From IMG/VR virus record IMGVR_UViG_3300048583_000051, positions 1-25,185 of that record: a stretch of DNA of 25,185 nucleotides; one strand, 5' to 3'. The notes below the pieces were generated by a model. It worked only from the letters and a program-made list of their open reading frames with translations. It did no database searches and was not told the DNA's origin. Shown piece by piece: positions 7,444 to 21,454 of this stretch (position 1 is the stretch's first letter; each line of letters opens with the position of its first letter). Position numbers and translations under genes: made by a program. Origin of the DNA: a virus.

Positions 7444-9378
7444 TTATTGTATTGCCGAAGCAATAATATCGGTGTCGGGGTAACGCAATTCAAACAGACA
7501 GGGATCAAGACTTGGGTAAATAATCCCATCTACCGTAGCCGACGGAATGTCATAGATGAAGTTTTCGTAGTCCGATCCATCCTTGAAACTATAGCGGTTG
7601 AACACTTCAACGGAAGTAACGCTTTGAACACCTTCGACCAGTGCAATCTCCGTATATAAGTCATTGAGAATGATTGGTTGGTTCATCTGCCAACGATCAA
7701 TCTCAAAGAAGGTCTTAACCGCATCAATACTTCGGGCGATGACTTCGTTCATGTTGTAGTTCTTGAACACCACTACTCTAAACTTCACGCCAATATTGAC
7801 GACAAACCCATCTAGAATGCGGATTTCATCGGTCAAAATACGGTAGACATCCAAGTATCGCTTAAGATTATGCTTGACATCACGATTAAGTCGAGTTACC
7901 TTCTTGTCCTTGTTGTATCCGAGCACATAAAGATTGACGACATTTGGTGCTGCTGGATTGTCAGCAAATACTCCACCAACCGGAGCTTCTTGGTTAGTGT
8001 TTCGAAGAATGTTGTTGATCTGCTCATCTGGAGCGACAAAGACCTTTGCCACTCCACCAAACTTGCCGGGCATTGCATACGAACGAACCAAGTAATCCTC
8101 TGGTGTTACCAATCGATTTTGGGCGTTGAAGAATGCAAGAGCGTTCTGACGGATTTCCTCTACGGAGTCCTGTCCCTTGCCGCCGACGGCCGGGTCTGGA
8201 TTATTGACCGCAACAGATGCAACAACGTCATTGTATAGAGCACGTTCCTGAGCACTAAACCCAAGCGGATTGTTTAGGATGGAGATATCCGCAATGTCAG
8301 TAATGGTGTTTGATGGAACATTCGACTCTAACCCACCGCCTACGGTATAGGTTACCGTCATGGTAGTATTGGACGGAGACAAACCATATGACTTACTTGA
8401 CAGGAAGTCTGCGGGATCGATGGTGGTGGATGCTAACGTATCCTCGTATTCCGAGTTTGCAATCTTACGAGGATCGAGGTTGATTAGTGTGCTGGTTTCA
8501 TCCAAAATACCAGAGCCAAAGTTTAGTTCTGCTTCATAATCCTCGTTATATCGTAATACAAATCGGCGGGGAACTCTCTTAGCACGAAGCACGTAACTTG
8601 GTGGAATACCTTCATCTGATCCAGTGTATGCGCTAGAGTTCAAACTAGCGTCAAACACAAGGTCTTGGGCCAAGTAATCTACTTGATACCACTTGTTTCC
8701 AGCTGCATCTACTACATCAATGATCTCTAATACATTCTCGTCGGGTAACTTAAACTTGGAGAACCGCTGAGCTGATCCAAATGAGTAGTCATACGTCTTT
8801 ACGGTGCCGGCTACTACCTTTACCTTCTTACGGATAAGATAGGTCAACGGCTTGTTGTTAGCGTCTACAGCATATACGGTGATTTCACGTTCGGTCGGAT
8901 CGGAAAAGTCAACAATGTCTACGCTACGGAATGTAGTGCCATCATACTCCGGAGCAGAAAATAGAGCCCCAGCATCAACGCGGAGGTAGTATTTTTCGTC
9001 GGGAATGTAATCAGTTGTAATACCAGTAGCTGGACAAATCTGAAAGATGTCAAGGTCGGTATATGCGGCTGTGGAGGGCTTGACGCGATAACCTAGAGCC
9101 TGAGCAATGGAGATAATGTTATCCTGCTCTTCGGCATACTGGATAAGGTTCTCTCGAAACTGTGTGTCAATGTAGTAAGACAATACATCGCCCACATATG
9201 ATGCCATTTCAATCATCATCATACCGGGAGATGCTTCATTGAAATCGTTGTAGCTGTCGGGGAAGTAGGTCTTTGCAAACTCAATCAGATTTTGACGAAA
9301 CTCTGGAAAGGTTTTATTGAGATACTTCACTTCCTTGGTTACTGGAGCGAACGACTTTTGGATTTTTCTTATTGACAT
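7444..9378 (-). CDS. Baseplate wedge protein, T4 gp6-like (baseplate J family)
   Basis: At 644 residues it is close to the usual length of T4 gp6 relatives. Residues about 20-100 carry the family signature: an N-terminal helical segment, then FNEASPGMMMIEMASYVGDVLSYYIDTQ and a stretch naming the AQALGYRVKPS turn. T4 gp6 forms the hexameric ring of wedges around the baseplate hub and transmits the contraction signal. The central and C-terminal parts contain LVTPEDYLVRSYAMPGKFG (about residue 430) and the VDAVKTFFEIDRWQMNQPI segment, both typical of baseplate J-like folds. It sits directly after the gp25-like gene, the standard gp25-gp6 order in T4-like phages. The start follows the previous stop by 1 nt. 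Confidence 0.95.
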   Translation of the reverse strand: MSIRKIQKSFAPVTKEVKYLNKTFPEFRQNLIEFAKTYFPDSYNDFNEASPGMMMIEMASYVGDVLSYYIDTQFRENLIQYAEEQDNIISIAQALGYRVKPSTAAYTDLDIFQICPATGITTDYIPDEKYYLRVDAGALFSAPEYDGTTFRSVDIVDFSDPTEREITVYAVDANNKPLTYLIRKKVKVVAGTVKTYDYSFGSAQRFSKFKLPDENVLEIIDVVDAAGNKWYQVDYLAQDLVFDASLNSSAYTGSDEGIPPSYVLRAKRVPRRFVLRYNEDYEAELNFGSGILDETSTLINLDPRKIANSEYEDTLASTTIDPADFLSSKSYGLSPSNTTMTVTYTVGGGLESNVPSNTITDIADISILNNPLGFSAQERALYNDVVASVAVNNPDPAVGGKGQDSVEEIRQNALAFFNAQNRLVTPEDYLVRSYAMPGKFGGVAKVFVAPDEQINNILRNTNQEAPVGGVFADNPAAPNVVNLYVLGYNKDKKVTRLNRDVKHNLKRYLDVYRILTDEIRILDGFVVNIGVKFRVVVFKNYNMNEVIARSIDAVKTFFEIDRWQMNQPIILNDLYTEIALVEGVQSVTSVEVFNRYSFKDGSDYENFIYDIPSATVDGIIYPSLDPCLFELRYPDTDIIASAIQ

Positions 9379-9379
9379 A

Positions 9380-9754
9380 TTAGAACGCCAAGATTATACT
9401 ATCGGTGATATTCGCATTGGCCGGAATGGAAAATGCGATTGTTACATAAATCTTGTTTCGATCCTCATCCGGTTGAACTTGCACATTCTGTATGACGATG
9501 TATGGCAACCATGTTCGGACGGCTTCTTCGATAGAACCCCGAATCGAGGATTCGGTATTTTTCGTAATAGGTGCAAACAAGTGTTCGTATATATTGCATC
9601 CAAATCGGGGCTGCATAATCCGTTCACCCTTTTTTGTCAATAACAGGTTGGTCAAGTTTGACTTCGCCTGGGTGACTATATCGAACCCCTGCTGAAAATA
9701 CCCATTCGATCCTCGCTTGACAGGTAGTGTTATACCAAGAGGCGTCTGTGCCAT
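9380..9754 (-). CDS. Baseplate wedge protein, T4 gp25-like
   Basis: The 124 residues match the gp25/GPW family in length and layout. An N-terminal PLGITLPVKRG precedes a strand/helix with F.QGFDIVTQAKSNLTNLLLTKKGERIMQPRFGC, the hallmark LLLT..GER..P.FG turn. A helical part and a final beta strand follow. In contractile tails this protein joins the wedge to the sheath and nucleates sheath assembly. It lies 6 nt after the 156-residue gene and 1 nt before the gp6-like gene. No strong ribosome site is adjacent; the nearest AGGGAG lies 12 nt upstream, inside the end of the preceding gene, which fits translational coupling. Confidence 0.95.
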   Translation of the reverse strand: MAQTPLGITLPVKRGSNGYFQQGFDIVTQAKSNLTNLLLTKKGERIMQPRFGCNIYEHLFAPITKNTESSIRGSIEEAVRTWLPYIVIQNVQVQPDEDRNKIYVTIAFSIPANANITDSIILAF

Positions 9755-13164: not shown

Positions 13165-13775
13165 ATATCGTAACCACCGAATGTGGTGATGTAATCGGAG
13201 ATGTGTCGTCCATTGCCATCCACCACTCTAAAGTTGTATTTTTCAGGATAGAAAAATGCTAATACTCCACCGGGACCAACTAGATGGGCGCCAGCAAGAA
13301 TACCAGACTTTGTAACATACACGCCGTTTACCGTCTGATTACTGTAGGTATCAATCACGGTCTTAAGCGTGCGTTCATTCTTCTTCAGGAGAAGAACCAT
13401 TGCTGAGTCCTGCAATGCTACGTCAGCTAGAAACTCCTCATTACTAATATGAGAAAATCCAATCCCATTAAGGGTCTTTCTACCAAACTGGTATTTACCC
13501 ATATAGCCATACTTGTTGACCACATCTGTTCGTCCCATACCCTCCGCATGAGCCAACTTCGCCATGAACTGATGAAGTTCACCGCGCTTCGGAATACTAT
13601 ACTTGCGACGCTTTTTCTTGATTATAACTGCGGCCTGCACTGGTTGCGCTGGACGTAGTGTATCAATCGCATGTGATGTAGGCATCACATCCGACACTGG
13701 CTGTGGGCGAGTCACGAAGTAGTTGCCAAAAAAGATTAGTATGGCTGCCCAAAAGACTAGTAATCGTTTTTTCAT
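13161..13775 (-). CDS. Lytic transglycosylase/lysozyme-like protein with N-terminal anchor
   Basis: The 204-residue protein has a Lys-Lys-Arg start and a hydrophobic segment at 5-20, which could be a signal-anchor or cleavable signal. A Pro-rich and Lys-rich linker runs to about 64. The catalytic part (65-204) has AHAEGMGRTDVVNKYGYMGKYQFG, with E78 as the likely catalytic glutamate before the G-Y-M-G-K-Y-Q-F motif of the transglycosylase-like lysozyme fold. AGAHLVGPGGVLAFF is the usual substrate-groove helix. It would cleave the glycan strand of peptidoglycan in the periplasm. The ATG overlaps the IMPDH-like gene stop by 4 nt. No holin is certain nearby. Alternative reading: a virion-associated wall hydrolase rather than the main endolysin. 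Confidence 0.8.
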   Translation of the reverse strand: MKKRLLVFWAAILIFFGNYFVTRPQPVSDVMPTSHAIDTLRPAQPVQAAVIIKKKRRKYSIPKRGELHQFMAKLAHAEGMGRTDVVNKYGYMGKYQFGRKTLNGIGFSHISNEEFLADVALQDSAMVLLLKKNERTLKTVIDTYSNQTVNGVYVTKSGILAGAHLVGPGGVLAFFYPEKYNFRVVDGNGRHISDYITTFGGYDI

Positions 13776-14863
13776 CGTAGTAAATGGGGATGCGCCTCGT
13801 TCAGACCAGCCGCAGTAATACGTTCAAATACGGCTCGATCTCGGAACGAGTCTAGGTTGTGAGCTCCAACATAACTCATGGAACTCTTAATGCCGTCCAT
13901 AATATCTGATACGACGGTTGATACAGAACCTCTTGACGGAACCATTTTTGATGCGCCTTCAACATGCTCTGCTGCTCCCTTATGCAGCAACTTCGATGTG
14001 GCAGAAGCAAGACCACGGTAAATCTTCATATGACGAACATTCGGCCACTGGCCGTCTACAAACACTTCACCCGGCGCTTCATCAGTGCCGGCGAACAGGC
14101 TGCCGATCATCACGGTGTCAGCACCAGCAGCTAAAGCCTTTGCAGCGTCACCCGGATACCGGATACCGCCGTCAGAAATCACGGGCACATCGACCTCATA
14201 GGCGGTGTCCACGATTGCCTGTAGTTGGGGGACTCCGACACCGGTGCGAACTCGCGTCTCACAGACCGATCCTCCACCCACACCAACCCGGAGTCCATCT
14301 GCGCCCCACTCAACCAAATCACGTGCAGCTTGGACGGTGGCAATCGAGCCAGCAATGATGTCCGCCTTGATCCCACTAGACTTCAACTTCGTGATCGTAT
14401 TCTTGACATGACGATGGTGTCCATGTGCCACATCAATAACTAAGACATTGACCCCGTTTTTGACGAGTTCTTGAGCGCGCTCTACTGCGTCACCGTTTGC
14501 TCCTATTGCTGCTGCTACCGGATACTCCAAGTTAGAACAGATCAATCTAACGAACTGAGCCTGATTTGCTTGTTCTTCAATGGTCATGAACCGATGGATG
14601 ACGCCTAGTCCACCAAGCTTGGCAATAACCGACGCCATATTACCATCGCACACCGTGTCCATCGGAGCGGCGATTAGTGGTATTTGGATGTCGTAGTTGA
14701 CCGATACTTGAGTGGATGTATCTACATTAGAACGACTCTCGACTTCACTATACTGCGGAATGATCTGCACATCATCGAACGTCAACGCTGTTCTTGGCGA
14801 TGTGGTTACTGTGCTTGTCCACATAGGGAACGAGTTATCGAACGATAGTGGAGTATTTGGCAT
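13772..14863 (-). CDS. IMP dehydrogenase/GMP reductase family enzyme without CBS domains
   Basis: I chose the ATG at 14863 (363 residues) because AGGA lies 8 nt upstream; the longer frame would need a TTG. The TIM-barrel signatures are clear. FDDVQIIP is at the start. [11 protein letters not shown] is near residue 62. The phosphate/active-site loop [15 protein letters not shown] has the nucleophile at C201. [21 protein letters not shown] follows, then [13 protein letters not shown] and YRGLAS. IMPDH makes XMP from IMP with NAD; GMP reductase makes IMP from GMP with NADPH. The end, F-RITAAGL-EAHPH, resembles IMPDH. The flap lacks the Arg-Tyr dyad IMPDH uses for hydrolysis and the two CBS domains are absent, so GMP reductase or an unusual activity is equally possible. 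It overlaps the glycosyltransferase gene by 29 nt. Confidence 0.9.
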
Positions 14864-15590
14864 TTTGCTGTTCCTGTCTGTCAATAGTCTTGAAGTGACG
14901 AATGGCGAAAAACTCTAGCGGTGGGAAGTTGGAGATCATACGATGTCCTGTTAGTGTCTCGTGCACCTTTCCTGTCCACTGGATGTGTGGAGCTCTCTTG
15001 TATAGCCGTGTCTGATAATCGGGCCACATGACGCATGGTTCCTGAAACTCTACGGTTCCATTTTCACCAATCGTATGTTCAATACTGTATGCTTTGAGTA
15101 AATCGATTTCAGGTTGAGTCAGTTTCTTCATTACCGTGGGAAGGTTTTCCACTTGAGTGACGAACCACCCCCATTTGTTGCAGTGTTCTAGCGTCAATCC
15201 ATCCACGGTATTAATACGAGGAAGTCGATACGCTTCAACGTGAGGATTTTCATCAATGATGCTGGGGATGCTTGCAATGAGTTCGTCCAAGACCCACTCA
15301 TCTGCATCCAAGTTCAATATCCAATCACCGGTGCATTGTCCCGTCATAAAGTTCTTTTGGGCTGCAAAATCTTCATTCAAGTGTCGAAAATGAACCTTAG
15401 TTTCTACGACATTCTGTCCTACCCAATCGAGGATTTGCTTGGTATAATCGTCTGTAGAATAATCATCAATAATGACCAGCTCACATGGAAAGCCGGGATA
15501 ATCATCTGTAAAGCGCTGGTATCGTCTAACAAAGTCCTCTACATAAGCGCCTTCGTTGTGGGTCATGGTAGCAATAGAAAGTTTTTGCAT
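14835..15590 (-). CDS. Family 2 glycosyltransferase
   Basis: The 251-residue protein shows the GT-A fold of GT2 enzymes: SIATMTHNEGAYVEDFV at the start (nucleotide-sugar binding), CELVIIDDYSTDD, NFMTGQCTGDWILNLDADEWV with the metal-binding D95-x-D97, and later aromatic-rich acceptor segments (HIQWTGKVHETL). GT2 enzymes move a sugar from a nucleotide-sugar to an acceptor. In phages they modify DNA, capsid or host surface glycans. Nothing here reveals which. It sits before the IMPDH-like gene, overlapping it, and is preceded by a short gap with a hairpin. The ribosome site GGAACGGA ends right before the ATG. Confidence 0.88.
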   Translation of the reverse strand: MQKLSIATMTHNEGAYVEDFVRRYQRFTDDYPGFPCELVIIDDYSTDDYTKQILDWVGQNVVETKVHFRHLNEDFAAQKNFMTGQCTGDWILNLDADEWVLDELIASIPSIIDENPHVEAYRLPRINTVDGLTLEHCNKWGWFVTQVENLPTVMKKLTQPEIDLLKAYSIEHTIGENGTVEFQEPCVMWPDYQTRLYKRAPHIQWTGKVHETLTGHRMISNFPPLEFFAIRHFKTIDRQEQQNAKYSTIVR

Positions 15591-19895: not shown

Positions 19896-19949
19896 ATCAC
19901 GCTCCAATAATCTATAACAGATTACTCCTTGACTGTTGACATAACAAAG

Positions 19950-20285
19950 TGGACATGGCGGGAGTCGAACCCGCGTCCATGACGCAATACTAACAGGTGT
20001 TTCTACGTGCGTAGCCGAGTTTTGTTCTTAATCGTGGATGGGACACCCGGCAGACCCATACACAACCTAGTCACTTACTCAGAGTTATCGTGCGTGACCT
20101 TCCGATAGTCTGACCTATTTGGACTCGACTTACCGATAATAGGTGTTTCGGTAAGGAGCTAGCTTACGCAGCTAGAGCGAGTTGTTCAGTGCCAGATATT
20201 GTTTGGCTTGGATTTTTAGGGACAATCCAATATCCCTGCACGCTTCATTCTGTTTTTTCGCTCATGTCGAAACCATGACATGCCC
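19950..20285 (-). ncRNA. ssrA: Transfer-messenger RNA (tmRNA)
   Basis: The tRNA-like ends are clear. GGGCATG (20285-20279) pairs with CATGTCC (19957-19951) as a 7-bp acceptor stem with one G-U pair, followed by discriminator A. The T arm GGACGCGGGTTCGACTCCCGCCATGTCC is at the 3' end, written here only as a feature of positions 19951-19978. No CCA is encoded. The 5' end continues with GGTTTCGACATGAGC, the usual D-like loop. The tag frame ends ISGTEQLALAA then TAA (stop 20166-20164), and LALAA is the classic tail recognised by ClpXP-type proteases. The resume codon is uncertain (AGC at 20208 would give SQTISGTEQLALAA). tmRNA frees stalled ribosomes with SmpB; no smpB is in this window. The length, 336 nt, is normal. 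Confidence 0.93.
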
Positions 20286-20296
20286 AGATACCTCTA

Positions 20297-20325
20297 AATC
20301 TACCCGCCCATGATGTAACATTCAA
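20297..20325 (-). promoter_or_regulatory. Possible sigma-70 promoter for the tmRNA
   Basis: Minus strand TTGAAT (20325-20320), 17 nt, TAGATT (20302-20297). Each box matches 4 of 6 consensus bases and the mature RNA start lies 12 nt downstream of the -10. The spacer overlaps a GC-rich hairpin, so the call is tentative. Confidence 0.35.
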
Positions 20326-20332
20326 GGGCGGG
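20303..20332. terminator. GC-rich hairpin between the protease gene and the tmRNA
   Basis: CCCGCCC (20303-20309) and GGGCGGG (20326-20332) form a 7-bp all-GC stem with a 16-nt loop, located 15 nt after the protease gene stop and 18 nt before the tmRNA 5' end. No T run follows on the minus strand. It may stop transcription weakly or mark the tmRNA 5' processing site. Confidence 0.45.
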
Positions 20333-20347
20333 GTTCGTAACAAATGT

Positions 20348-21454
20348 TTACAACTTAAATATAACCTTGGCGAGCCAACCAATGAGCAATAATAGGACGG
20401 CTACAATACCCCCAATAACTAATCCATGATTGTCAGGCGAACCGACAGGCGGCTCAGCGGGTGGTTCTACCGGGGGTGCGACCGGGCTGTAGAGGTCTAC
20501 GCCTAGGAGGTTAGCGACTTCGGTGGCGTGATTGCAGACAGTGAACGATCCATCGTCATTTCCTGCGAACAATAGAGCAACCCAATGTAGCTTGCCGTTC
20601 TCCTCAATCCAGACGCCGGAACCAGAGTCGCCGCCTTGAGAGAAGGCAGTGGTGGACTCTACAATGATCTGATCTTCGAATAGAACTCCACCTTGGTCAT
20701 ACCCGATTAACAGACTAGCTGCGGTGTCGGTAATGGTTCCGCGGGTGACGCCGGTAGTGCGGCCCGACTTGACCACGGACTGACCTTCCAGCGCTGGAAC
20801 GATGCTGGTTGGGGTTCCATCTACATTCAATACATCCGGAATATCGGTGGTTCCATTAGCGGATCGAAGAGCGCAATCAACCTTATTAGCGACATCCTCT
20901 GAAATGGTCATTGGAACAAATCTAAGCAGAGTTCCGATAGCTTCGGTGCCGTTGTCGTAGGGGCCCGGCTGAAGAATTGCGTCATTGATATTTGCACGGT
21001 TCTCGTCAGCGTAGACATGGTTATTGCTGACACGAGCAAGTAGTCCACCGATCCGTTGCTTCACAAGTGGGCCGGCGGTTCCCGCAGTAATCTGGTAGTG
21101 CCCTTCCGATACTCCGGTTGGAACTGGGCGAACCTTCTGCTGATGCTGATATGGGGTATCGGCCGCACTAGCTTTTGGGAGCGTGTTCAACGCTCTGATC
21201 TTTCCCACTTCCTTTACATCTATTTCATCGGGAGTAAGACCACCCATGACCACAGCATTTTTGTTGATGACCTTATCGGCCGCAAGTGCTTGCGTCGATA
21301 CTTTCTTTTCAACATATACGGTAATGGCTTTCTTTCCGGTCTTTTTACCGTTAGATACCTTTTCAGAAATACCAACGCCCACGACGCCAGGAAAGTTCTT
21401 GAAGATATACTCTTGCTTTTCTTTCTTCAGTTTCAAAAGGCGTGGATCATTCAT
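20348..21454 (-). CDS. Membrane-anchored trypsin-like serine protease (NAL1-like)
   Basis: The 368 residues start with an N-terminal domain common to bacterial NAL1-like proteins (PGVVGVGISEKVSNGK, ITVYVEKKV, GGLTPDEIDV). The protease domain spans about 125-320, with H146 in VSNNHVYADENRA, D193 in NKVDCAL, and S277 in the GGDSGS motif. KSGRTTGVTRG and FSQGGDSGSGVW are family hallmarks. The catalytic triad is therefore complete. A Pro/Glu-rich linker (about 323-340) leads to one C-terminal membrane span (about 345-364), with a short basic end. The protease would probably sit on the membrane, tethered at its C-terminus. There is no signal peptide, so which side it faces is unclear. AAGGAG lies 7 nt before the ATG. 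The tmRNA follows directly. Confidence 0.9.
   Translation of the reverse strand: MNDPRLLKLKKEKQEYIFKNFPGVVGVGISEKVSNGKKTGKKAITVYVEKKVSTQALAADKVINKNAVVMGGLTPDEIDVKEVGKIRALNTLPKASAADTPYQHQQKVRPVPTGVSEGHYQITAGTAGPLVKQRIGGLLARVSNNHVYADENRANINDAILQPGPYDNGTEAIGTLLRFVPMTISEDVANKVDCALRSANGTTDIPDVLNVDGTPTSIVPALEGQSVVKSGRTTGVTRGTITDTAASLLIGYDQGGVLFEDQIIVESTTAFSQGGDSGSGVWIEENGKLHWVALLFAGNDDGSFTVCNHATEVANLLGVDLYSPVAPPVEPPAEPPVGSPDNHGLVIGGIVAVLLLLIGWLAKVIFKL

Follow-up and report, generated by a model that had tools for sequence, protein, structure and literature searches.

The stretch of DNA analyzed here, a 25,185-bp IMG/VR virus record (the window), carries a genuine and complete one-piece tmRNA gene of ordinary build, on the minus strand. 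tmRNA frees ribosomes that have stalled and tags what they were making for degradation. Judged from sequence, the window very probably encodes a functional-looking phage tmRNA that would resume translation at the codon GGC and add the tag (A)GTEQLALAA. Phage tmRNAs are already well known as a class, and this one is a fresh example of a known thing, adding one well-formed member.

Detection and anatomy of the tmRNA

A single tmRNA was called by ARAGORN in the window, a one-piece (ssrA) gene of 337 nt at positions 19949-20285 of the minus strand. Comparison with Rfam using cmscan matched the locus (20285-19947) to RF00023 over the full length of the model (positions 1-374) with 123.5 bits and an E value of 3.4e-48, against a gathering cut-off of 47 bits for this family. 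The MFE of the RNA was lower than that of 100 of 100 dinucleotide shuffles (z = -2.96), and an origin of the tmRNA by chance is excluded. An initial annotation of this DNA had described a complete one-piece tmRNA, with no strand given, and had proposed ARAGORN and the Rfam covariance models as a check; both programs detect the RNA and assign it to the minus strand.

All features described below lie on that strand. The 5' strand of the acceptor stem, GGGCAUG (20279-20285), pairs with CAUGUCC (19951-19957) over 7 bp, and the third pair is G-U (G3-U70), an identity element for alanine. The 3' tRNA-like half (19950-19979) comprises the T arm GGACGCGGGUUCGACUCCCGCC, with the stem GCGGG/CCCGC, the 3' acceptor strand, and the discriminator A at 19950; both the 7-bp acceptor stem and the T arm had been recognized initially. 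Directly 3' of the discriminator stands CUU, so the gene itself does not supply the CCA tail.

Four H-type pseudoknots of crossing stems were found in a listing of all stems of at least 5 pairs, the crossing pairs being picked by order and known tmRNA layout from a list that also includes competing stems. Pseudoknot 1 (20208-20237) consists of AGGGA/UCCCU crossed by UUGGAUU/AAUCCAA, pseudoknot 2 (20113-20155) of CUUACCGA/UCGGUAAG crossed by ACCUAUU/AAUAGGU, pseudoknot 3 (20069-20107) of UAUCG/CGAUA crossed by GGUCAC/GUGACU, and pseudoknot 4 (20014-20059) of AUGGG/CCCAU crossed by GCCGGGU/ACUCGGC. The initial annotation would have been abandoned had no pseudoknots been foldable between the tRNA-like ends; all four can be folded there.

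Tag and resume codon

ARAGORN and reading of the frame gave a tag of 9 amino acids, GTEQLALAA, encoded by GGC ACU GAA CAA CUC GCU CUA GCU GCG UAA (20164-20193), with the glycine codon GGC at 20193-20191 as resume codon. The stop codon is located at the tip of the helix 5 hairpin, CUAGCU/AGCUAG (20159-20175). The LALAA end expected initially is thus present, but the tag itself had been given as TISGTEQLALAA and its frame had been started near an AGC, and both are replaced here.

Before the resume codon stands the motif UAUCU (20194-20198), in which RF00023 and ARAGORN place the equivalent of E. coli A86 at 20197. In E. coli tmRNA, this A, four bases 5' of the resume codon, is the chief frame determinant, and pyrimidines at the position, A86U included, abolish function (PMC2481249). 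At the UAUCU/GGC junction the A lies at -4 relative to GGC; for GCA, one base later, the base at -4 is U. Because the conserved A is correctly placed for GGC only, we assign GGC as the resume codon, which is also the codon that sits under the resume position in the Rfam alignment. Resumption at a glycine codon is documented for a minority of tmRNAs, with 30 sequences (PMC1168896). The initial annotation was right that the codon is not a typical Ala; the oddity and ambiguous frame that it supposed are resolved by the A at -4 and the alignment, which indicate an ordinary Gly codon at the correct 4-nt distance.

Resumption at GCA would instead yield the short, degron-less tag ALNNSL*, and the RNA would then only rescue ribosomes. 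This rival frame had been noted before, correctly as ending in NNSL but with GCC given as its codon. Our viral survey gave GCA (Ala) more often than any other resume codon (62 of about 95 distinct calls among the matches listed), it stands at position 94, where ARAGORN assigns the resume position in several relatives, and its frame stops after 6 codons. However, the U at -4 is the base that abolishes function in E. coli as A86U (PMC2481249), the Rfam alignment does not place GCA under the resume codon, and only the GGC frame has the ALAA end and a stop in helix 5. We therefore consider resumption at GCA very unlikely and retain GGC, which combines the conserved A at -4 with a degron-like end (UAUCU/GGC, GTEQLALAA*).

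Carrier phage and neighboring genes

The carrier is an uncultured phage with a contractile tail, of which the window covers a 25-kb fragment. It encodes, on the minus strand, a baseplate wedge protein (7444-9378; PHROG 219/6), 10.6 kb downstream of the tmRNA, and a gp25-like baseplate wedge protein (9380-9754; PF04965), as well as a family 2 glycosyltransferase, HNH and HD proteins, and two tRNAs called by ARAGORN. A whole-window DNA similarity search of phage records returned no near relative.

Phages often integrate into tmRNA genes, and this general knowledge lends some weight to the idea that the gene belongs to a host or prophage contig mistaken for phage, or is the remnant of an integration site. 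The baseplate genes of the contig are nevertheless collinear with other virus records, including the genome of a 484-kb phage, and the tmRNA gene is complete, lies 10 kb from the structural genes, and is accompanied by no recognized integrase among the families found in the window. A host origin of this kind is extremely unlikely. The initial attribution to a phage accordingly holds, given the IMG/VR record, the gp25 and wedge genes, the collinear phage records, and the sister phages with a tmRNA at the matching position.

Several other features of the locus were observed. Just upstream of the tmRNA lies a predicted protease gene (20348-21454, minus strand; PHROG 20754), for which tblastn found relatives in an Aeropyrum virus (Alphaspiravirus), as a putative serine protease, and in the 484-kb phage, and none among the viral contigs. 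Between the end of this gene and the start of the tmRNA, an 11-nt inverted repeat (CCCGCCCATGA/TCAAGGGCGGG, 91% complementary) occupies 20303-20332; read on the minus strand, it may form a terminator or a processing hairpin, but no run of T comes after it. An IMP dehydrogenase/GMP reductase-like gene (13772-14884, minus strand; PF00478, E = 6e-107) is shared with the 484-kb phage.

Proposed function

From the anatomy, the frame that the published A86 rule predicts, and the gene position kept in relatives, we infer a course of transcription, charging, tagging, and proteolysis that would benefit the phage. The RNA would be transcribed during infection; a promoter search of its strand gave nothing sigma-70-like, though phage promoters may differ. 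Host enzymes would carry out maturation and CCA addition, and, as CCA is not encoded, the RNA should depend on a CCA-adding enzyme. Host alanyl-tRNA synthetase would charge it with alanine through G3-U70, and the charged tmRNA, together with SmpB, would enter ribosomes that had become stuck on broken mRNAs. A search for SmpB genes that covered the window, six related IMG/VR records, and three related phage genomes, several of these sequences being fragments, gave no match, which makes the host protein the likely partner. Translation would then resume at GGC and append (A)GTEQLALAA. The LALAA end is of the kind read by Clp proteases, suggesting delivery of tagged proteins to ClpXP/ClpAP and their degradation. 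SmpB, alanyl-tRNA synthetase, the CCA-adding enzyme, and the Clp proteases are thus presumably all those of the host. By the known role of trans-translation, the phage would keep ribosomes free and clear truncated proteins under heavy mRNA decay.

Relatives with a conserved gene position and changing tags

Relatives of the wedge protein were found at 38-41% identity in the uncultured 484-kb phage LR756508, Microcystis phage Mel-JY01, and Flavobacterium phage immuto, and further relatives at 26 viral-contig loci. Above-cut-off tmRNAs were present in five related IMG/VR records and in LR756508. The window and 6/6 of these other tmRNA-bearing records, two of which (G010 and G011) are almost duplicates, have the tmRNA on the strand of the wedge gene and 10.4-15.3 kb upstream of it, and these six are all of the other relative records that reach about 15 kb upstream of that gene. 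Records with no tmRNA match extend less than about 13 kb upstream, except for two cultured phages, in which the RF00023 search found no tmRNA. The genes between tmRNA and wedge gene are collinear across related records, and in both the window and its nearest relative, G009, the tmRNA stands between an HNH gene and an HD gene, in the same order.

The tags of the relatives differ from that of the window. They read AEPLKLAA, ANKKSKVISYNFTSKKTSKKSGLALAA, and ADDNVIAYDFSYDEVAVAA, with GTYSNVAYA and GVNNADYESAGFTAEDFAQMDGESLYHGSERKPAAV read from Rfam alignments; these last two depend on our interpretation of the alignments, ARAGORN having given no call or another tag. The resume amino acid is Ala or Gly. 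In LR756508 the tmRNA (92434-92880; L048 1501-1947) has an apparent 36-amino-acid tag with a Gly start and a PAAV end. The ARAGORN tag for this phage, GRRKPLSW, was rejected, as the resume codon falls at UAACU/GGC in the Rfam alignment. A second RF00023 match in LR756508 (414804-414915, 112 nt) may be a tmRNA reduced to the tRNA-like domain or a tRNA.

In the tree, the window tmRNA joined that of G009, the nearest relative having one (support, 0.94). All tmRNAs of the related phages did not group together, a pattern compatible both with one ancestor followed by fast change and with repeated replacement at the same place. A difference in tag in every distinct relative and an identity of only about 50-60% between the relatives' tmRNAs might suggest a decaying passenger acquired from a host and functionless in the phage. 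Against this, the window tmRNA has its acceptor stem, its T arm, all four pseudoknots, and its tag frame intact, the gene occupies the same region in seven records, and its partner in the tree is the tmRNA of the nearest relative; we regard decay as quite improbable and favor a functional RNA.

A more far-reaching proposal, which we offer tentatively and think unlikely, is that this phage group maintains the tmRNA as a standing component at one place but quickly changes its tag and even the amino acid at which translation resumes. The reason would be that the tag either is adapted to the proteases or adaptors of the particular host or directs infection products to a fate other than that of the host tag. 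The kept place and changing tags raise a small testable question, namely, whether phage tmRNA tags follow host tag and protease specificity.

Comparison with known tmRNAs

The window tmRNA resembles the bacterial one-piece tmRNA (ssrA, RF00023) in having all structural parts, G3-U70, a tag frame, a stop in helix 5, and a degron-like end; it differs in being phage encoded, in lacking an encoded CCA, and in its Gly resume codon, a known minority (PMC1168896). tmRNAs have been described in mycobacteriophages and Bacillus phage G (PMC4131195) and in huge phages (PMC7162821), and are present in Streptomyces phages. The initial remark that only some large phages carry them was fair, but many mycobacteriophages, Streptomyces phages, Bacillus phage G, and huge phages are by now on record. 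Like those of mycobacteriophages Bxz1, Cali, Wildcat, and others, phage G, Streptomyces phages such as Stanimal, and huge phages, the window tmRNA is complete, lies among phage tRNAs, and presumably uses host cofactors, whereas its phage group and tag differ. DNA-level matches to the Streptomyces phage tmRNAs were limited to the 3' T-arm region.

Viral contigs were surveyed with an exact T-arm pattern and ARAGORN, some of whose calls were permuted or doubtful. Among the matches listed, resume codons were mostly GCN, and GGC occurred in six distinct sequences, including that of the window. A GxxQLALAA-like tag pattern run on 84,980 species genomes matched 57 contigs, and ARAGORN called a GGC-resume tmRNA at 47 of these 57 loci, 46 ending in QLALAA or QFALAA and one in QLAFAA. 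They were mainly from Chloroflexota (SAR202, Dehalococcoidia) and Opitutae, with a few from elsewhere. Since the pattern selects Gly tags by design, the search speaks to existence and recurrence rather than overall frequency; within it, GxxQLALAA tags appear common in Chloroflexota and some other phyla. The exact tag GTEQLALAA was found in no genome of this collection under the pattern used, and DNA encoding it had no match in the viral contigs.

The Chloroflexota and Opitutae tmRNAs with GxxQLALAA or GEEQFALAA share with the window tmRNA a 9-amino-acid tag, the GGC resume codon, and the QLALAA/QFALAA end, but their overall RNA identity to it is about 60% or less. Signals of host affinity were mixed: the tree placed the window and G009 beside Chloroflexota tmRNAs with weak support (0.74), and global alignment among the pattern-selected genomes favored Opitutae. 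The tmRNA of IMG/VR contig L093, called by ARAGORN in the viral survey, has nearly the same tag (GETQLALAA) and a Gly resume codon, yet it is not the closest to that of the window in the RNA tree. In L093, too, a trypsin-like protease open reading frame lies close to the tmRNA.
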